Shown here: one piece after another, positions 843 through 10,657 of the stretch
Layout of the letters: each line of letters opens with the position of its first letter
Position numbering within the stretch: position 1 is the first letter of the stretch
Source: Adhaeribacter radiodurans
GTDB taxonomy: Bacteria > Bacteroidota > Bacteroidia > Cytophagales > Hymenobacteraceae
NCBI RefSeq assembly: GCF_014075995.1
Contig: NZ_CP055153.1
Coordinates: 2,356,001 to 2,420,000, forward strand
DNA length: 64,000 nucleotides
Direction of reading: 5' to 3'
Translations under genes and position numbers: made by a program
The notes under the pieces: model-generated
Told to the model about the DNA's origin: nothing
The model's input: only the letters and a program-made list of their open reading frames with translations
Databases searched by the model: none

Positions 843-1250
843 TTAAATATTGCTCTTAAATTGTTTCAGCCATTCTAAAGCGCTTTCGCGGTCCGTAAAC
901 AAGCGGGTAGGGTTTTTAGGTTTATTTACCATAATATAAAAGTTAGCCATCATCTTCAGCATGGGGGAATTTACCACCATTGCACTGGCTAAAACTAAAT
1001 CATTGCCTTCATTCGCCATAAAATCGCGGGCTTCCTTAGTAGTTTCTTTCACCTGCGTAATATCAAACAAACAAGGGTAAGATTCTTTTGCAAAAAACTC
1101 CAGCCGGTTTTCTACGGTAACCTTAGCCACGTTAATATCCATAACATCCATTGCTTTAAAGAAGCACTGAAAGATCCCGTCTTGGATATACATTAAGACA
1201 TATTTTGTTTCTTGGGTTCGGGTTCTACTACCTTCTTGGAATTGTGACAT
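843..1250 (-). CDS. STAS-like (SpoIIAA-fold) protein, function unknown
   Basis: A soluble 135-residue protein. The pattern of alternating strands and helices, with CLFDITQVKETTKEARDF (about 60-77) then a region of small and hydrophobic residues ending in RLFTDRESALEWLKQF, matches the STAS-like proteins frequent in Bacteroidota (DUF7793-type, from memory). Such proteins often act as anti-sigma antagonists or regulatory partners, but no phosphorylatable serine motif is obvious here. It is divergent from the oxoamine synthase/GNAT gene starting at 1339 and shares an 88-bp intergenic region with it, so it may belong to the same functional unit. The family call is moderately sure; the role is not known. 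Confidence 0.6.
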   Translation of the reverse strand: MSQFQEGSRTRTQETKYVLMYIQDGIFQCFFKAMDVMDINVAKVTVENRLEFFAKESYPCLFDITQVKETTKEARDFMANEGNDLVLASAMVVNSPMLKMMANFYIMVNKPKNPTRLFTDRESALEWLKQFKSNI

Positions 1251-1338: not shown

Positions 1339-3783
1339 ATGGCAAAAATTAGACATAATAACATTATTGATACGGTAGATTCTGTTTTGTCGGTGTCCAA
1401 GAAGAAAGGAATCATTCACCTGCATGCGCAAGACCATTCTTTAAATGGACAATATTTAACTTTAAACAACCATCAAGTTTTACATTTTGGTACGTGTGGC
1501 TACTTAGGATTAGAGCATCATCCTAAACTTAAAGCAGGTGCTATTGATGCCATTGAGCGCTTCGGAACTCAGTTCCCAATGTCCCGGACTTATATATCTA
1601 ACCCTTTATACAGTGAACTGGAAAGCTTAGTTAAGGAAATGTACAATGTTCCGGTGGTAATTTCTAAAAACTGTACGCTTTCTCACTTAACTACTATTCC
1701 CAGCATTATCCGTTCTACCGATTTAGTAATTCTGGACCACCAGGTACACGCCAGTGTGCAGGAAGCCGTAAAAAAATTGCTTACGCAAGGAGTAGCGGTA
1801 GAAATGATCCGGCATAATAATCTGGAAATGCTCGAAGATCGTATTAAAAAGCAACGCAATAAATATGATAAGATCTGGTACATGGCCGATGGTGTTTACT
1901 CTATGTACGGAGATTATGCTCCTGTTAAAGAATTAATTGCATTAGCCGAGAAATACGAACAATTATATTTATATGTAGATGATGCGCATGGCATGAGCTG
2001 GGCCGGAAAACACGGTACGGGTTATGTAATGAGCCAAATGCCCGAAGGTTTATACCGTAAAATGATTCTTACCGCCAACTTAGGTAAAGGATTTGGAGCC
2101 TGCGGAGGTTTGTCGTTATTCCCGAATGAAGAATGGTATAATAAAGTAAATAATTTTGGCGGGCCGCTTACTTTCTCCGTGCAGATAGAGCCCGCTACTC
2201 TTGGAGCTGCTATTGCCTCAGCCCGCATCCACTTAAGTGATGAGATATACGAGTACCAGGAAGAACTGCAACAGAAAATAGCTTATTTTAATAGCTTACT
2301 GAAGCAAACTAATTTACCCTTGGTTCACGAAAATAACAGCCCAATATTCTTTATTGGAACCGGAACCATGGACATGGGTAATTATTTGGTTCAGGAATTA
2401 TTAAATGATGGGGTTTACGTAAATTTAGCTACATTCCCGGCGGTTCCTGCCAAAAATATTGGAATTAGAATTACTATTTCGCTTAACAATTCAATAGAGC
2501 AAATAGAAGTACTGGTTGATAAATTGAAGCTTCATTTCGAAAGTGCCTTGATTGAAACGAATCAAACAGACGAAAAAATCCGGAAAGCTTTTAAAATGGC
2601 TCCCTCGGCCCAAATTTCAACTGCTGCTATTGCCAAGCCGGTAACCTCAAATCTTCTTACTGTTAAACGCTACTCTACCGTTGAAAAAATTGATACTACT
2701 CTATGGAACCAATATTTAGGCAACAGAGGCATGTTTGATTGGCATGGATTAATGTTTTTAGAAAAATCTTTCCGGAATAATGAAGAACAAGAAAACAACT
2801 GGGACTTTAAATACTATGTAGTAGAAGACAGCCAAGGCAAAATAGTTTTAATGACGTTTTTTGTAGTTGGCTTGCACAAAGAAGACATGTTCTCCCAAGG
2901 TTCTGTATCCAGAGTTATTGAGAAAGAAAGAGAACTGAATCCGTATTATCTGACCTCGACAGGTATTTTTATGGGTAGCTTGTTCACCGAAGGCGACCAT
3001 CTTTACATAGATAGAGAAAGCCCTTACTGGAAGAAAGCATTTAAAGGTATACTGGAAGAAGTTTATAAAGAGCAGGATAAAGTAAATGCGAGTAATTTGG
3101 TTTTAAGAGATTTTGCTGCTGGTGATACCGTAATGGATGAATTTATGGTAGAACAAGGCTTTGTGAAAATAGATATGCCGGAATCATGTGTACTGGAGAA
3201 TTTAGACTGGAGTTCGGTGGATGGTTACGTTGAAAGCATCTCTCCGAAAAGCAGACGGCATTTTTCGCAAAAAATTAAGAGAAATGAGCACTTTTTCGAA
3301 GTAAAAGTTAAAAACCAATTACCCGCTGAGGAACTAGAATATGCAATTGGCTTGTTTAAAAACGTAAAAGATAACAATGTTGACTTAAATACCTTCCTTA
3401 GCCCGGATAAGTTGTTTTACGAAATGAACGAAGATCCGGCATGGGAGTTTGTAGTATTGTACCTGAAAGAAGAATATTCCAGCAATAGTAAACCCGTTTC
3501 TGTTTGTTTTTGCCATAAAAATATTGCTGAAATATACAGCCCAATGTTAATTGGTATGGATTATGATTACTTAATGGAATACGGCGTTTATCGGCAAACC
3601 TTATATCAGGTAATAAGAAGAGCAAATGCTTTAGGCTGCAAAAAAGTGAACTTTGGTATTTCGGCATCTATTGAAAAGAAACGAGTAGGAGCTACCCTTT
3701 ACCCTAAAGTAGGTTACTTCCAAGCCAAAGACAACTATGCCATGGAGTTAATAGAAGCCACCATTGCTGTAGAAAAAGACTAG
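1339..3783 (+). CDS. Bifunctional alpha-oxoamine synthase / GNAT N-acyltransferase
   Basis: An 814-residue fusion. Residues about 30-405 are a PLP-dependent alpha-oxoamine synthase (the family of KBL, BioF, serine palmitoyltransferase and CqsA): the DDAHGMSWAGKHGTG motif contains the cofactor-contacting D215 and H217, and ANLGKGFGACGG supplies the Schiff-base lysine K250. Residues about 430-800 look like a GNAT/FemAB-like acyltransferase of the BioF2/COG3146 type. The first half would condense an amino acid with an acyl-CoA or acyl-ACP and lose CO2; the second could N-acylate the amine. Candidate products are an N-acylated amino-ketone lipid (sphingolipid-, capnine- or sulfonolipid-like) or a diffusible signal like that of CqsA/LqsA. 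The next gene, a hybrid histidine kinase, starts 23 bp downstream and is surely in the same operon. Substrates cannot be read from the sequence. Confidence 0.85.
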   Translation: MAKIRHNNIIDTVDSVLSVSKKKGIIHLHAQDHSLNGQYLTLNNHQVLHFGTCGYLGLEHHPKLKAGAIDAIERFGTQFPMSRTYISNPLYSELESLVKEMYNVPVVISKNCTLSHLTTIPSIIRSTDLVILDHQVHASVQEAVKKLLTQGVAVEMIRHNNLEMLEDRIKKQRNKYDKIWYMADGVYSMYGDYAPVKELIALAEKYEQLYLYVDDAHGMSWAGKHGTGYVMSQMPEGLYRKMILTANLGKGFGACGGLSLFPNEEWYNKVNNFGGPLTFSVQIEPATLGAAIASARIHLSDEIYEYQEELQQKIAYFNSLLKQTNLPLVHENNSPIFFIGTGTMDMGNYLVQELLNDGVYVNLATFPAVPAKNIGIRITISLNNSIEQIEVLVDKLKLHFESALIETNQTDEKIRKAFKMAPSAQISTAAIAKPVTSNLLTVKRYSTVEKIDTTLWNQYLGNRGMFDWHGLMFLEKSFRNNEEQENNWDFKYYVVEDSQGKIVLMTFFVVGLHKEDMFSQGSVSRVIEKERELNPYYLTSTGIFMGSLFTEGDHLYIDRESPYWKKAFKGILEEVYKEQDKVNASNLVLRDFAAGDTVMDEFMVEQGFVKIDMPESCVLENLDWSSVDGYVESISPKSRRHFSQKIKRNEHFFEVKVKNQLPAEELEYAIGLFKNVKDNNVDLNTFLSPDKLFYEMNEDPAWEFVVLYLKEEYSSNSKPVSVCFCHKNIAEIYSPMLIGMDYDYLMEYGVYRQTLYQVIRRANALGCKKVNFGISASIEKKRVGATLYPKVGYFQAKDNYAMELIEATIAVEKD

Positions 3784-3806
3784 ATTCAAAGTTTAAAATC
3801 AAGTAC

Positions 3807-5504
3807 GTGAAAGTTCTGAACGATAGAATTGAAGAAATAACTACCCTGATTGCGGAAGTAGCTAACGGTAATTTCGATTACACTATGGAAGCTTCCGAAA
3901 CCGGCGACGAATTAGATGCCTTAATTGCCGGGGTAAGTATGCTGGGACAAGAGTTGAAAAACTCTACCGTCTCCCGCGATTTTATGCAGAGCATTTATCA
4001 AGGGGTGGTAGATATGCTCTTGATTCTTAACACGGATTTTACTATTCGGAATGCAAACGAAGCAGTAGAAGAATTACTTGGTTATACAGAAGCAGAGCTG
4101 CAGGGAATTCCTTTTTCAATGGTGGTGCAGCAGAGTGATAATTCTTTATTGCCTGCCTTGCTGGAAAAGTTTAGGTACGAAGGTAAAGCCTTAAATGAGG
4201 AGTTATTATTTACTACCAAGCAGGATTCTAAAATTCCTGCTTCCTGCTCTTTTTCATTTTTAAAGAATAATGCCAAAGAAGTAGATGGTATTCTGATTAT
4301 TGCAAAAGATATTTCCAAACTTAAACAAACCGAAAGAGAACTGATTGAGGCAAAAAATAAAGCGGAGGCAGCGAACGAAGCCAAAAGCAACTTTTTATCT
4401 ACAATGAGTCACGAAATCCGGACCCCAATGAATGCCGTTATTGGTTTTACCAGTTTATTATTGAATCACGATCCCCGGCCAGATCAACAGGAGTATTTAA
4501 AAGTACTTAAATTTTCGGCGGATAATTTATTAACCTTGATTAATGATATTCTGGATTTTAGTAAGATAGAAGCCGGAAAAATTGAGTTTGAAAAAATTGA
4601 TTTTGATCCTAAAAAATTAATTACCAGAATCAGTGATCCGCTTCATCAATTAGCCATTGAAAAAGGTTTACAGTTAAAATTATTATTAGATCAGGATTTA
4701 CCTACTACTTTGGTGGGCGACCCCGTACGATTGAGTCAGATTTTAACTAACCTTATCAGCAATGCCGTAAAATTTACTAAAACCGGACGCATTATTGTTT
4801 CGGCAGCTATAAAAGATCAAACAAAAACTCACACTACTGTTGATTTCCGGGTAACCGATTCAGGTATTGGTATTCCGGCAGATAAACTGGAGCTTATTTT
4901 TGAGAGTTTTACTCAGGCAAAATCTGATACTACCCGCGAATTTGGAGGTTCTGGTTTAGGACTTACTATTATCAAACACTTACTAAAACTACAAGGCAGT
5001 AATATTCAGGTAGAAAGCCAGGTGGGTAAGGGGTCTACTTTTTACTTTAGCTTAACTTTCGAAAATAGTACCCAGCAATTTTCTTCTGACTCTAAAGATC
5101 CTATAGTTTCTGCCCCAAAAAGTTTAAAAGGAATCCGGTTGTTAATTGCCGAAGATAACCAGATTAATATTTTTCTGGTGAAGCAATTCCTGAACCAGTG
5201 GGAAATAGATTTTGATATTGCCGAAAATGGGTTGATTGCTTTGGATCTTGTGAAAAGCAACGATTATAACTTAGTTTTGATGGACTTGCAAATGCCGGAA
5301 CAAGATGGTTATGATACCACTTTAGCCATTCGACGTTTAGAAGGGGAGAAGTACCAGACGCTACCCATTATTGCTTTAACGGCTTCGGCTATGTTAGATA
5401 TTCAGGATAGAGCTTTTCAAGTGGGTATGAATGATTACTTAAGTAAGCCTTTTAACCCGGATGAATTATATAAGAGAATTGTTAAATATAGTTTTCCGGT
5501 ATAA
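3807..5504 (+). CDS. Soluble hybrid histidine kinase (HAMP-like, PAS, HisKA, HATPase, REC)
   Basis: A 565-residue kinase read from a GTG start. The N-terminal 50 residues resemble a HAMP helix pair, but no membrane segment precedes them, so the protein is cytoplasmic or the gene has lost a longer N-terminus. A PAS domain follows (about 65-175), then HisKA with the box STMSHEIRTPMN (phospho-acceptor H202), a HATPase with DSGIGIPADKLELIFESF and FGGSGLGLTI, and a C-terminal receiver (about 435-560) with the acceptor aspartate in LVLMDLQMPEQDG. It lies 23 bp after the oxoamine synthase/GNAT gene and ends just before a strong hairpin. The arrangement recalls CqsA-CqsS and LqsA-LqsS, synthase plus hybrid kinase, although those kinases have membrane sensor domains and this one does not. 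Confidence 0.9.
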   Translation: MKVLNDRIEEITTLIAEVANGNFDYTMEASETGDELDALIAGVSMLGQELKNSTVSRDFMQSIYQGVVDMLLILNTDFTIRNANEAVEELLGYTEAELQGIPFSMVVQQSDNSLLPALLEKFRYEGKALNEELLFTTKQDSKIPASCSFSFLKNNAKEVDGILIIAKDISKLKQTERELIEAKNKAEAANEAKSNFLSTMSHEIRTPMNAVIGFTSLLLNHDPRPDQQEYLKVLKFSADNLLTLINDILDFSKIEAGKIEFEKIDFDPKKLITRISDPLHQLAIEKGLQLKLLLDQDLPTTLVGDPVRLSQILTNLISNAVKFTKTGRIIVSAAIKDQTKTHTTVDFRVTDSGIGIPADKLELIFESFTQAKSDTTREFGGSGLGLTIIKHLLKLQGSNIQVESQVGKGSTFYFSLTFENSTQQFSSDSKDPIVSAPKSLKGIRLLIAEDNQINIFLVKQFLNQWEIDFDIAENGLIALDLVKSNDYNLVLMDLQMPEQDGYDTTLAIRRLEGEKYQTLPIIALTASAMLDIQDRAFQVGMNDYLSKPFNPDELYKRIVKYSFPV

Positions 5505-5524
5505 TTTAAAATAAAATCCTATTT

Positions 5525-5560
5525 AAAAGCCCGGTAAGTTTTAGTACTTACCGGGCTTTT
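5525..5560. terminator. Bidirectional rho-independent terminator
   Basis: A perfect 15-bp stem (5525-5539 with 5546-5560, core AAGCCCGGTAAGT) closes a 6-nt loop. It begins with a run of A and ends with a run of T, so it can act on both strands. It sits between the convergent kinase gene (stop at 5504) and leuS (stop at 5566). Confidence 0.9.
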
Positions 5561-5565
5561 ACATT

Positions 5566-8511
5566 TTATACTACTACGTTTACAATTTTATTAGGTACTA
5601 CAATTACTTTTTTAGGAGTTTTACCTTCTAAGTATTTATCAATTAACCCCGAACTCACTACTTCCTGCTCAATAAGTTCTTTTGGCATGTTTGTCGGGAA
5701 AGTAAGCTTACCGCGCATTTTGCCGTTTACTGAAATTGGGTATTCAAATGAGTTTTCCGTTAAGAACTGTTCTTGCCATTGCGGAAAACGGGCATACGAA
5801 ATACTATCTACATGGCCCAGCAAATGCCAAAGCTCTTCGGAAATATGCGGGGCGTACGGCGATAAAGCAATAGTAAGCGGTTCTAAAATGGCGCGCTTAT
5901 TACATTTTAAGGCAGTAAGTTCGTTAACGCAAATCATAAACGTACTTACCGAAGTATTAAACGAAAACCGTTCAATATCTTCTTCTACCTTTTTTATGGT
6001 CTTGTGCAAAGTTTTCAGCTCGGCTGGCGTAGGGTCTTCGTCGGAAACGTAAAAAACTCCGTTTGCATCAAAAAATAACTTCCAGTAGCGTTTTAAAAAT
6101 TTATGTACGCCGTCGATGCCGTTGGTGTTCCAGGGTTTAAATTGCTCTAATGGACCCAAGAACATTTCGTACATCCGCAAAGTATCCGCCCCAACTTTAT
6201 GCACTAAATCGTCCGGATTGACTACGTTGTACTTTGACTTCGACATTTTTTCGATTTCCCAACCGCAAATGTATTTTCCATCTTCCAGGATAAATTCAGC
6301 ATCACTTAAATCTGACCGCCAGGCTTTAAAAGCTTCTAAATCAAGTATGTCGTTCTCTACAATATTAACATCAACATACTGCGGTGATATTACCTGCAAA
6401 TACGGTTCTATATTTTTAGTTGGATACTTTTCTTTTAAGTCGATTTTAATTCTATCTAATATCGGGCTTAATAAACTTTCATACTCTTGTTTGCCATCAT
6501 TCTCCTTCAAAACATTATACCAGTGCTTTGAAACAAAAACACTTGGGAAGTGATAACTAGGAAAACCTTCATCTTCTTCTTCACCAGTGAAATTATTACT
6601 AAATAAACCAAATAATTGTTTATAAACGATATTTGATCGACCCTGAATCATGCCTTGGTTGATGAGCTTTTTAAATGGCTCTTCCTGCGAAACTAATCCC
6701 AGGTCTTTTAAAAATTTATACCAGAAACGCGAGTATAATAAGTGGCCCGTGGCATGTTCCGAGCCGCCAATATATAAATCAACGCTACCCCAGTAATCTT
6801 CGGCTTCCGGAGTAACAAACTGTGCCTTATTTTCCGGCGACATGTACCGCAAATAATACCAACTTGAGCCCGCCCAACCCGGCATTGTAGTTAACTCATA
6901 ATGATATTGACCTTGGTAATTCCAATCTTTGGCTCTGCCTAAAGGTGGTTCGCCGGTTTCGGTGGGCAAAAAGGCATCAATCTCTGGTAAAATTAACGGT
7001 AACTCACTTTCGGGTAACGGGTAGGCAATGTCGTCTTTATAGTAAATAGGAATAGGTTCACCCCAGTAACGTTGGCGGCCAAACACCGCATCGTGAATCC
7101 GGTACTGCACCTTACCTTTACCAACTCCTAATTCTTCAAATTTAGCTACGGCCGCTTTTATAGCTTCTTTTACCGCTAAACCATTCAGAAAGCCCGAGTT
7201 CATTAGTATTCCTTCTTTAGCTTCGTAAACTTCGTCGGGGGTAGAGCCTTCTATTACCGGAATAATAGGTAAATTAAAGTGTTTGGCAAAATTAAAATCG
7301 CGGCTATCGCTGGCTGGTACCGCCATAACCACACCGGTGCCATAGCCGGCTAGTACGTAATCGGCAATCCATAAGGGTACTTCCTCGCCATTAATGGGGT
7401 TTATAACATAAGAACCGGTAAAAACACCGCTAATATGTTTTACATCGCTCATGCGGTCGCGTTCCGAACGGTTTTTGGCCGTATTTACGTATTCTTCAAC
7501 GGCCTTTTTCTGGTCAGGAGTTGTTAGTTCGGGTACCCATTCGTGTTCCGGTGCTATCACTAAAAAAGAAACACCATAAATGGTATCCGGACGAGTAGTA
7601 AATACTTTAAGCTGTTGGTCTGAATTTTTAATTTTAAAATTAAGCTCCGCGCCAATAGATTTACCAATCCAGTTGCGTTGCATTTCTTTAATTGGATCGG
7701 TCCAATCTATGTGGTCGAGGTCGTTTAGTAATCGTTCGGCGTAGGCTGAAATGCGCAAACTCCATTGCTTCATTTTCTGGCGAATTACCGGATAGCCACC
7801 TCGTTCCGATACGCCGTCTTTTACTTCGTCGTTGGCCAAAACGGTACCTAAAGCCGGGCACCAGTTAACGGTAGCATCCGACAAAAAAGCCAAGCGATAA
7901 TTTAATAATATTTCCTGCTGTTGTTTTTCACTGTATTGCTGCCATTGACTTGCGGTAAAATCTGGAATTTCTTCTTCGTTACAGGCTGCTTTAACTGTGG
8001 CATTGCCTGAATTTTTAAATTTGTGTAGGAGAGTAGCAATAGGTTCGGCTTTGTTCGTTTCCTGGTTATACCACGAATCAAATAACTTTAAAAAAATCCA
8101 CTGCGTCCATTTATAATAACTAGGGTCGGAGGTTCGAACTTCGCGGTTCCAGTCAAAAGAAAATCCCAGATTCGCTAACTGCTCTTTATAGCGGGTAATA
8201 TTTTGTTCGGTGGTAATGGCTGGATGCTGACCTGTTTGAATCGCGTACTGCTCGGCGGGTAAGCCGAAGGCATCGAAGCCCATGGGGTGCAAAACATTAA
8301 ATCCTTTAATTCGCTTGTAACGAGCTACTATGTCAGAGGCAATATAACCCAGCGGGTGACCAACGTGTAATCCGGCACCGGACGGATACGGGAACATATC
8401 TAAAACGTAGTATTTTGGCCGGTTTGGGTCAATACTTACCCGAAAAGTTTGGTGTTGATTCCAATATTGTTGCCACTTTTTCTCAATCTGGTTAAAGTTG
8501 TAGTCTGACAT
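5566..8511 (-). CDS. leuS: Leucyl-tRNA synthetase
   Basis: Class I leucyl-tRNA synthetase, 981 residues, which charges tRNA-Leu in the cytoplasm. The HIGH-type motif is [10 protein letters not shown] (HVGH at 49-52) and the KMSKS loop is [11 protein letters not shown] near residue 754; the CP1 editing domain and the anticodon-binding C-terminus are present. Bacterial LeuRS is usually about 860-930 residues. The surplus here includes an extra segment of some 60-80 residues just before the leucine-specific region, between [12 protein letters not shown] and [20 protein letters not shown], rich in charged residues. A first inserted stretch near residue 165-215 is common in Bacteroidota. A TAnnTTTG-type -7 box lies about 60 bp upstream. 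Confidence 0.98.
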
Positions 8512-8912
8512 TTCGGTACTTTCTTTCTATAAATTCGCCAATCTCATCCGCTCTATAAACGAGATAAAAGCAAAAATACTTTTTTTTACTAAGTATGTCA
8601 TCATTTCGCTAAAAACCTTGCAGTTATTATAAATAGAACCCAATTTAGTTGCGAGTTTAAAAACTAAGGAAATTCCAGGCAGAGAATTGTAAATTTTTAA
8701 ATAAATATTTTAATCGTAGCGTTTAAAAATAAACTTATATTTAGTAAAAAAATAACCAGAATTCCGGCTACTTCAATTCCTGATAAGTTCAATTATCAGG
8801 TGAAACAAAGTTATTTATTACCTAAAAGGTATTCAAAAACTACCTATCCCTATCGTTACTTGCAACCCGTACCTGTTTAAATTAGAGCATGAAGTAATTT
8901 TTACGCAGTAAA
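8512..8912. other. Intergenic region, leuS / alginate-lyase-like gene
   Basis: This 401-bp AT-rich gap separates two divergent genes and should hold both promoters. I see no open reading frame of note. A small hairpin with an 8-bp perfect stem (CCTGATAA, 8779-8786, with 8793-8800) lies in the leader region of the gene at 8913. Nothing else stands out. Confidence 0.5.
8571..8578 (-). promoter_or_regulatory. Possible -7 box for leuS
   Basis: On the minus strand this reads TATTTTTG, matching the Bacteroidota -7 form TAnnTTTG, 60 bp upstream of the leuS start. No clear -33 TTG is found at the expected spacing, so the call is tentative. Confidence 0.35.
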
Positions 8913-10589
8913 ATGGAAAATAATACTATTGGAAATTATAATCAGCAACTTGTTGAACCTTCGGCATTACCAACTGCTACATTATCCGGAGCCAGAACTC
9001 TTTCGGATAATGCCCAAGCTGTTAGCGTGGATGAGTCTGAACTAGAAATTGATCAACCCTATTCGGAGGACCAGTACCTTAACTTTGAATTTGAACCGGA
9101 AGCAGGAACAACCGATGATACTACTGATCAATCTGATACGGATGCAGATTTTCATTTAGGCACATTTAATAACCTTCGCGGTACATTTACCTGGTCATTT
9201 GCGGCATTGCAAACGAATGCCGAAACGTATAATGCTGTTTTATCCGGGTCCTCTAACCGCATTGCTTTAAAAACGGCTGTCGATAAGCTTAAGAGCTATA
9301 TTAAGAAAAGGAATATTTTAGATAAAACTCCTTACGGTATTGCTCCTAAACCCGAGACCTATAGGTTTCAGGATGAAAGTGGCGCTACAATAACCAAGCC
9401 CATGTTAGCAACCGGGTCGCCGAACGATTATGTAAGTTTAGCAACCTATTGGTGGCCAGATCCAATCAATGAAAAAGGCTTGCCTTATGTTGTTATTGAC
9501 GGCAAAACCAATCCTGAATCTAACGCCATTCCGGATCAAACTTTATTACGAAATATTTGCGAGGATATTCAGTTTTTAGGCTTAGGCTATTTTTTTACAA
9601 GGAAAGAAGCTTATGCCGAACAAGCCTTGAATTTATTAAAGGCATTTTTTCTGGATAAAACCACTCAAATGAATCCACATTTTAAATACTCTCAGATTAT
9701 TCAGGGTATGAACGGAGGGTTTGGGCGGGCCACCGGGTTTGTAGATGCCGAAGTACTAACGATATTATTAGACGGCTACCAATTGCTACAAGGCTCGAAG
9801 GCATTAACGGCTGCCTCTGATGTGGATGCCGGTTTAAAAGATTGGTTCCGAAGCTTATGGGGATGGATGACTACCAATTATAAAGAAGCTCCCAAGGAAG
9901 GTACCGAAGATTTTTACCATTACGAGATGATGTTGGGTATAAAAAATGCCCATAATAATATCCGGAGTGCGTACGAACTTCAGGTATTAACTTATGCTCA
10001 ATTTATCGGCGAAGATGCTTGGGTGGTAGATGAAATTAACAAAATTATTAAAGACACGGAAACCTCCAAAGGTCTATTATCCAATCAAATTTTACCCCAG
10101 GCGGGCAAAATTGAGGTAAAAGATAAAATGGGTGCTGTTAAAGAAATTGCGGTACCCGCAGGCGCCATGCCCGAGGAGTTAAGGCGGACTAAACCCGCGA
10201 CTTATTGTCAGAAAAACCTGGATTTTTTATTGCGCTTAGGGAGCTTGGCCGAAAATGCCGGTATTGATTTATGGAATTACGTTACTCCGGAAGGCGTTTC
10301 AATTAAAAAAGCCATTGAAGCCATATTATACTTTGCTGCTAATCCCAAAGAATGGCCGTGCACCGAACACGAAGATATATTGAACCCCACCATTTACCGT
10401 ATTTTCCGGCAATCCATGCGCCGGGCAAGTGGCGCCTGGCCCAAAGACGAGGAATTACAAAAAAGTATTCAAGGATATTTGGCCCAACTGGATAAGCTGT
10501 TAGGTGCAAATTCGGGTTATTCCGAAACCTCTTACCGGCAAGGTTTAGATTGGCAAATATTAGTGCACAAGCTAGGCTACACTTTCTAA
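8913..10589 (+). CDS. Alginate lyase family protein (PL5-like, PF05426)
   Basis: A 558-residue protein with an alpha/alpha-toroid polysaccharide lyase domain. Family signatures: NDYVSLATYWWPDP (about 171-184), the glycine-rich PYVVIDGKTNPES stretch, the YFFTRKEAYAEQALNLLKAFFLD helices, and MNPHFKYSQIIQGMNGGFGR. Such enzymes cleave uronate polymers by beta-elimination; the substrate here is not determined. Unlike most family members it has no visible signal peptide: the first 75 residues are acidic and low in complexity (DDTTDQSDTDAD). Either the export route is unusual or the enzyme acts inside the cell on something else. It stands alone, not in a polysaccharide utilisation locus with SusC/SusD genes. 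Confidence 0.8.
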   Translation: MENNTIGNYNQQLVEPSALPTATLSGARTLSDNAQAVSVDESELEIDQPYSEDQYLNFEFEPEAGTTDDTTDQSDTDADFHLGTFNNLRGTFTWSFAALQTNAETYNAVLSGSSNRIALKTAVDKLKSYIKKRNILDKTPYGIAPKPETYRFQDESGATITKPMLATGSPNDYVSLATYWWPDPINEKGLPYVVIDGKTNPESNAIPDQTLLRNICEDIQFLGLGYFFTRKEAYAEQALNLLKAFFLDKTTQMNPHFKYSQIIQGMNGGFGRATGFVDAEVLTILLDGYQLLQGSKALTAASDVDAGLKDWFRSLWGWMTTNYKEAPKEGTEDFYHYEMMLGIKNAHNNIRSAYELQVLTYAQFIGEDAWVVDEINKIIKDTETSKGLLSNQILPQAGKIEVKDKMGAVKEIAVPAGAMPEELRRTKPATYCQKNLDFLLRLGSLAENAGIDLWNYVTPEGVSIKKAIEAILYFAANPKEWPCTEHEDILNPTIYRIFRQSMRRASGAWPKDEELQKSIQGYLAQLDKLLGANSGYSETSYRQGLDWQILVHKLGYTF

Positions 10590-10598
10590 ATGAATACC

Positions 10599-10657
10599 CT
10601 TATAAGCTTATTTTACCCACTTAGTTTTATACTAAGTGGGTAAAATAAGCTTATAAG
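10599..10657. terminator. Long perfect hairpin terminator
   Basis: A perfect 27-bp stem (10599-10625 with 10631-10657) closes a 5-nt loop (TTTAT). It separates the convergent alginate-lyase-like gene and the esterase gene, and is likely bidirectional. The stem is unusually long for a simple terminator. Confidence 0.8.

Follow-up and report, generated by a model that had tools for sequence, protein, structure and literature searches.

A fused oxoamine synthase-acyltransferase and its linked PAS sensor in Adhaeribacter radiodurans: a candidate small-molecule signalling module

What is made by an enzyme that joins an alpha-oxoamine synthase (AOS) to a GNAT-type acyltransferase in one polypeptide, and does the hybrid histidine kinase encoded directly after it belong to the same system? 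Both genes lie in a 64,000-nucleotide stretch of the Adhaeribacter radiodurans genome (contig NZ_CP055153.1, positions 2,356,001 to 2,420,000 of the forward strand), referred to here as the window. A first-pass annotation of the sequence had offered two readings of this locus, a one-protein ceramide or sulfonolipid synthase, or a signal synthase with its sensor in the manner of CqsA-CqsS. Our analysis gives an even chance that it is a small-molecule signalling module, made up of a synthase and a linked cytosolic sensor, and it looks like an apparently undescribed chemical signalling system. In the open-licence literature we found no description of an AOS-GNAT fusion and no match to DUF7793, PF25056 or PRK07505. 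The features of the locus, in window positions, are:

843 to 1250, minus strand: DUF7793 protein, 135 aa, divergent from the fusion (PF25056, 7.2e-41)
1251 to 1338, no strand: divergent intergenic region between the DUF7793 and fusion genes, 88 bp, presumed regulatory (open reading frame coordinates)
1339 to 3783, plus strand: AOS-GNAT fusion protein, 814 aa (open reading frame; AlphaFold2 model)
1339 to 2589, plus strand: AOS half, residues 1-417, with H137, D214, H217, K250 and R377 (profile, alignment, structure)
2617 to 2646, plus strand: linker, residues 427-436, poorly defined (predicted local distance difference test score, pLDDT, <50)
2659 to 3765, plus strand: tandem GNAT half, residues 441-809, FemX-like double-GNAT fold, K780 invariant (profile and structure)
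3807 to 5504, plus strand: hybrid histidine kinase, 565 aa, GTG start, soluble (open reading frame, Pfam, hydropathy)
3807 to 4331, plus strand: HAMP-like and PAS sensory half, kinase residues 1-175, the part common to fusion loci (iterated profile)

Linkage of the fusion to DUF7793 and a cytosolic sensor

Both halves of the enzyme lie in a single open frame with domain matches to each, and the kinase frame starts on the same strand after a 23-bp gap, exactly as first annotated, while the DUF7793 gene on the other side had been overlooked. Relatives were taken from the best 80 loci of at least 588 pattern matches (the main set; loci carry handles such as L136), which open reading frames and hidden Markov models divided into 73 fused loci, six AOS-only loci and one (L136) that was unclassed despite coding for a full-length relative. 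The fusion does not stem from a frameshift or an assembly error, because 66 of the 69 relatives in this set that align with most of the query translate in one frame (exceptions L096, L102 and L139).

We searched the neighbourhoods within 3 kb using iterated profiles of DUF7793 and of kinase residues 1-175, and rechecked loci lacking a partner in six frames, which added a DUF7793 gene in L103 (open reading frame 5390-5779). Longest-frame gene calling misses some true genes (L103, L124), and a number of the neighbours that it lists in G+C-rich loci are probably not genes. Among the 58 fusion loci flanked on each side by at least 3 kb, DUF7793 was present in 51, the sensor in 48 and both in 48; for all 73 fusion loci these counts were 58, 54 and 53, with the weakest sensor match counted at E=8.7e-13. 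Likewise, both partners were found in 16 of 20 fusion loci of a second set that includes the window, and neither in the other four, although the two sets are not independent because their genomes overlap (e.g. L050/L109, L044/L076). AOS-only loci differed, with both partners in 0/6 in the main set (L153 has the sensor only, the other five neither) and in 1/9 in the second (L062, the other eight having neither). Gene order shifts by lineage: in Pontibacter the sensor is downstream, Flavobacteriaceae have it upstream, behind DUF7793, and in others it is convergent, yet the genes remain a set. Across genomes the linkage of fusion and sensor is therefore conserved, and these counts rule out the kinase being a random neighbour. 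The signal-synthase reading thereby withstands the refuting condition named at first annotation, a random linkage to the kinase in other genomes.

At the genome level the fusion is patchy, occurring in 17 of 291 genomes of the order (22 matches of at least 580 bits, two of which end early; three candidates were scored per genome, making copy numbers a lower bound). DUF7793 was detected in 15 of the 17 fusion genomes versus 38 of the 274 others (Fisher p=1.3e-10), and 25 of those 38 exceed the Pfam cut-off. As a control we examined 20 DUF7793 loci away from fusions, hand-picked mostly from the stronger matches, and applied one rule to both sets: 51 of 57 fusion loci (the main-set loci with DUF7793 before L103 was added) had a sensor at most 3 kb from DUF7793, versus 3 of 20 fusion-free loci. 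In the latter the sensor was directly adjacent in only one, and two of the three matches were weaker (5.2e-12 and 1.6e-7). The DUF7793-sensor pair is therefore largely specific to synthase loci, and the idea of a generic pair that merely sits beside an enzyme is unsupported. Mirror-tree correlations over 59 loci were 0.69 for fusion and sensor, 0.64 for fusion and DUF7793, and 0.73 for the two halves of the fusion.

The window kinase has PAS, HisKA, HATPase_c and receiver domains in Pfam, and a HAMP-like stretch that falls under the cut-off (21.5 of 25 bits). Hydropathy revealed no membrane segment (maximum 19-residue mean 1.06), and we judge the kinase to be soluble because it has no strongly hydrophobic 19-residue stretch. 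Output domains across 57 sensor proteins were diverse in Pfam, with HATPase_c in 27, the AraC-type HTH_18 in 25, HisKA in 17, a receiver in 12 and HisKA_3 in three, and output-less forms of ~217 aa also exist (L052 scanned). The sensory half is thus constant while the output is interchangeable between kinase, AraC-type and none, and the window kinase is one variant. What is conserved beside the fusion is the sensory half together with DUF7793, rather than the kinase as first annotated, whose output is often AraC-type or absent. In its own genome the sensory half has one full-length match and two partial PAS matches (1.7e-5 and 6.5e-5).

Together, a constant sensor with varying output and a conserved linkage favour a signal synthase over a membrane-lipid enzyme. 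In such a module the AOS half would form an alpha-aminoketone by condensing an acyl thioester and an amino acid, and the GNAT half would acylate or aminoacylate its amine. Within the cell, the PAS domain would detect this product or a derivative, and the sensor would then drive a phosphorelay in the case of the window kinase or transcription in the AraC forms, with DUF7793, possibly STAS-like, as an accessory partner. The anatomy of the enzyme and its linkage are observed directly; the product, the ligand and the role of DUF7793 we infer, and this tempers the signalling interpretation.

Several other points also weigh against it. Neither partner was found in 14 of the 73 main-set fusion loci (13 if a PAS-bearing kinase in L124 is counted), including L123 and L143 from Bacteroidota and L145 from Nannocystis, and both are missing from L136 and from L056, L058, L059 and L061 of the second set. 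Conversely, the L062 gene (9061-10347) encodes an AOS without the GNAT half and keeps DUF7793 and HAMP-like/PAS neighbours, which makes the GNAT half dispensable in at least this case. The common sensory half rests on its own profile more than on Pfam, because PAS_9 was matched in 31 and HAMP in just six of the 57 sensor proteins (E up to 0.001), and this profile was iterated from the first 175 kinase residues on these very loci. The mirror-tree values also carry the signal of a common species history and of a few loci that are near-duplicates. Finally, the sensor could answer another cue and regulate the pathway.

Other kinases lie beside the fusion outside the main group (L111, L113, L124, L130 and L135). 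A six-frame search of L124, from a Myxococcaceae metagenome-assembled genome (MAG), revealed a 672-aa PAS-bearing hybrid kinase directly 3' of the fusion (8614-10632), the start of which by eye has no HAMP-like part, and it was left out of the sensor count. In L130 (4041-6098) and L135 (2649-5024), both Myxococcota or deltaproteobacterial, hybrid kinases with no match to the sensory half again lie directly 3' of the fusion; by eye they have a common N-terminal region with no Pfam match (L135 scanned), possibly an alternative sensor domain. L122, on a contig labelled Saccharospirillaceae (a gammaproteobacterial MAG), holds a complete module with a HisKA_3 sensor, reflecting either transfer or misbinning.

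A profile of 55 DUF7793 sequences matched 3bl4, an uncharacterised protein, at 2.3e-15 among solved structures, and the DUF7793 protein also has a weak SpoIIAA-like match (E=0.019), which hints at a STAS-like fold. The genome has three DUF7793 copies, and the other two adjoin neither an AOS nor a sensor. The second close copy (L155, 4544-7993) is near a 134-aa protein with no Pfam match and an alpha/beta hydrolase, which to us looks RsbQ-like.

The AOS half and the lipid and hydroxyketone alternatives

Searched alone, the AOS half matched PF00155 at 5.4e-22, whereas the whole fusion protein gave no match up to E=1 and a genome-wide PF00155 search also omitted it. Of the active-site residues first annotated, H217 and K250 were right and D215 was off by one, because alignment to Alb29 puts the aspartate that binds pyridoxal 5'-phosphate (PLP) at D214, the first D of DDAH. 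All five residues listed above for this half are identical in 67/67 sequences, as is D184, and we take H137 to be the stacking histidine and R377 the carboxylate-binding arginine. The half thus has the PLP fold, catalytic lysine, aspartate, stacking histidine and carboxylate-binding arginine of the AOS superfamily. An AlphaFold2 model of the whole fusion (alignment of 67 sequences) had a mean pLDDT of 90.5 and a predicted template modelling score (pTM) of 0.86. The best 50 Foldseek matches to the full model were AOS structures only, among them Alb29 (1.2e-29), serine palmitoyltransferase (SPT), 8-amino-7-oxononanoate synthase (AONS) and KBL. The structure prediction proposed at first annotation thus yielded an AOS fold for this half and a double-GNAT fold for the other. 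By both sequence alignment and Foldseek, Alb29 is the closest solved AOS; it is described as an S. albogriseolus enzyme (PMC11906848).

Among curated NCBIfam models the fusion scored best with PRK07505 (NF005697), at 302 bits under a 342-bit cut-off, a model that spans the AOS half only and is named simply 'hypothetical protein'. It did not pass the SPT models (NF047599, 146.4/500 bits; NF047600, 143.7/640; NF047603, 127/670) or the CqsA-type autoinducer synthase model NF005526 (PRK07179, 78.8/428 bits), and it scored under the cut-offs of the curated KBL, ALAS and BioF models. The same genome holds a separate KBL-type enzyme (696 bits versus a cut-off of 493), a separate BioF-type enzyme (341 bits versus 426, by eye in a run of biotin genes) and a sulfonolipid-type enzyme, L012, which matched 28eh, of the cysteate-C-fatty acyltransferase type, at 4.5e-182 and 7u7h at 2e-186. 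The fusion therefore comes on top of these AOS enzymes, and the notion that it is the sulfonolipid enzyme of this genome is disfavoured, L012 suiting that role by sequence. None of the four own-genome AOS proteins scanned reached a curated SPT cut-off; a fifth, weak match (L013) lay outside the scan.

These results bear on the reading of the fusion as an aminolipid enzyme, in which a long-chain 3-keto base made by the AOS would be N-acylated with a fatty acid by the GNAT half to give a ceramide- or sulfonolipid-like lipid in oxidised form, and membrane-lipid supply would be regulated by the sensor and DUF7793. There is precedent in bacterial ceramide synthesis (Spt, bCerS, CerR), in which, according to PMC11087976, Spt acts with an N-acyltransferase, both are cytoplasmic and N-acylation is proposed before reduction; the fusion differs in being one polypeptide, linked to a sensor and under the SPT cut-offs. 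PF04339 was matched by 19 of 62 GNAT-half members, and among 14 control genomes it occurs in Caulobacter, where PMC11324152 names CC_1154 as the proposed ceramide N-acyltransferase. That CC_1154 is a PF04339 protein is an assumption of ours, and the family's presence in Synechococcus among the same controls suggests that it is not tied to ceramide. The lack of an SPT-grade enzyme among the scanned AOS proteins would leave room for such a role, as would a weaker fold match of the GNAT half to N-myristoyltransferase (Foldseek rank 35, 2.4e-7). However, the low SPT scores, the separate sulfonolipid-type enzyme, the patchy occurrence, a sensor specifically linked to the fusion and the mobile-element genes near 18 loci described below, which a housekeeping lipid gene would not usually have nearby, all count against it. 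We regard a one-protein ceramide or sulfonolipid synthase as unlikely.

The first-pass comparison with CqsA-CqsS does not reach beyond gene logic. In CqsA-CqsS and LqsA-LqsS an AOS is encoded beside a sensor kinase, and here too an AOS gene adjoins that of a hybrid kinase. The likeness is limited to this arrangement because the sensor is soluble and the AOS falls far below the CqsA-type model, and the fusion locus further differs by its HAMP-like/PAS sensor, swappable outputs, fused GNAT half and DUF7793. To our knowledge CqsA has no counterpart of the fused GNAT. The Vibrio CqsS-type sensor has six transmembrane segments according to PMC4821796, whereas the window kinase has no hydrophobic segment and the kinase part is itself optional. 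An alpha-hydroxyketone system of the CqsA/LqsA type is accordingly very improbable, and of the first-pass reading as a signal synthase with its sensor, the conserved linkage stands, although the sensor is soluble and its output variable. A further parallel is RpfF-RpfR, in which a signal synthase gene lies beside that of a cytosolic PAS sensor, although the enzyme class and outputs are different.

The GNAT half and a possible pyrazinone-type product

The C-terminal half matched PF13480 at 1.7e-4 (22.2 bits versus a cut-off of 22), and of the 62 GNAT-half members 52 matched this family. A separate model of the half, built from 62 sequences, had a pLDDT of 93.0, and FemX was its first Foldseek match (4.0e-12; 1xf8, 7z5y and 9wqx are among the FemABX-related double-GNAT structures), followed by the aminoacyl-tRNA-dependent peptide synthases Sbb17 and Sba18, and then by VipF, tandem GNATs and MprF-type domains. 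K780 is identical in 67/67 sequences and aligned (hhalign probability 97.9) with the FK-motif lysine of 18 proteins that match PF02388 weakly. We take the FK-motif lysine to occupy the place of FemX Lys305, and by sequence infer that K780 is its equivalent. An active-site role for Lys305 is given in PMC12945691. The resemblance to the FemABX aminoacyl-tRNA transferases thus extends to the double-GNAT fold and the lysine aligned with K780, whereas PF02388 is outside the eight families matched by the 62 members (E up to 0.01), and this half is fused to an AOS.

Acyl-CoA-dependent GNATs bind coenzyme A (CoA) through a Q/R-x-x-G-x-G/A loop. Across the 62 C-terminal halves this pattern was absent at any fixed place, occurring in 10 with no position common to two. 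The sequence and the model fit a predicted aminoacyl-tRNA donor for the GNAT half, which falls short of proof because the superfamily may also hold fatty N-acyltransferases.

Since the GNAT half is FemX-like in fold and keeps K780, a more specific form of the signalling module is a live reading, although we consider it a long shot: the fusion would be a dedicated single-protein synthase of a pyrazinone-type signal, like 3,5-dimethylpyrazin-2-ol (DPO) or autoinducer-3 (AI-3), and the linked cytosolic PAS protein its receptor. Here the AOS half would supply an alpha-aminoketone, the FemX-like half would add an aminoacyl group from aminoacyl-tRNA, and the N-aminoacyl aminoketone would cyclise to give the signal received by the PAS protein. 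In Vibrio, the DPO receptor VqmA is likewise a cytosolic PAS-type protein. PMC12930378 describes DPO as formed from aminoacetone and alanyl-adenylate via N-alanyl-aminoacetone, apparently with no dedicated synthase, and VqmA as activated by both DPO and N-alanyl-aminoacetone. Related pyrazinones act as signals in several bacteria (PMC10979472). The likeness to DPO-VqmA would therefore lie in an N-aminoacylated alpha-aminoketone as the route to a signal, and the difference in that one fusion protein could carry out both steps. If the aminoacyl reading is true, the fusion would be a dedicated synthase of the sort reportedly missing for DPO (PMC12930378), and the module would form a class of signalling systems in Bacteroidota with Myxococcota outliers, carried as mobile-element cargo in Flavobacteriaceae. 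The retention of both partners by the AOS-only L062 and the minority of lineages with a fusion and no partners count against the pyrazinone reading too.

Distribution, mobility and the secondary-metabolite alternative

The main set comprises loci from Pontibacter, Sporocytophaga, Fulvivirga, Nannocystis and Flavobacterium (including F. johnsoniae CI04), from numerous further Flavobacteriaceae, and from Myxococcota or deltaproteobacterial MAGs, among others. An RteC-matching gene was found in the neighbourhood of 18 loci, presumably all of Flavobacteriaceae going by genus, with a topoisomerase-like gene in eight of these and in L138. In F. johnsoniae CI04 (L091, 8529-13492) the gene immediately after the fusion is RteC (PF09357, 4.8e-72), and after it come an excisionase-like HTH_17 protein, a DUF4099/DUF3945 protein and a topoisomerase. 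This set is typical of Bacteroidota integrative elements, and because these genes adjoin it, the module is probably mobile-element cargo in Flavobacteriaceae.

Such a setting would also suit a secondary metabolite under regulation, perhaps an antibiotic or another aminoketone, with DUF7793 and its PAS neighbour sensing stress or redox and not the product. PAS domains often sense redox or cofactors, and the closeness of the AOS half to Alb29 from S. albogriseolus points the same way (PMC11906848). When 29 neighbourhoods were clustered, however, every cluster other than AOS, DUF7793 and sensor/kinase was limited to four loci at most. These neighbourhoods thus showed no transporter, resistance or tailoring gene in common, and we give this alternative only a modest chance. 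For the signalling module, the presence of the fusion in tractable species such as Flavobacterium johnsoniae makes it a Bacteroidota candidate open to direct testing, and we know of few small-molecule signalling systems in this phylum.

Stand-alone relatives of the AOS half were also observed. One (L070, 3569-4727) is broken into two open frames and is apparently a decayed copy. A plasmid search returned AOS-half relatives only, in 96 records of which 95 were rhizobial, with ~30-35% identity in the best 20 of the 96. Among these, the relative on R. leguminosarum pSK04 (L158, 6160-8212; ~31% identity) adjoins a response regulator, with Ti-type conjugation genes near.

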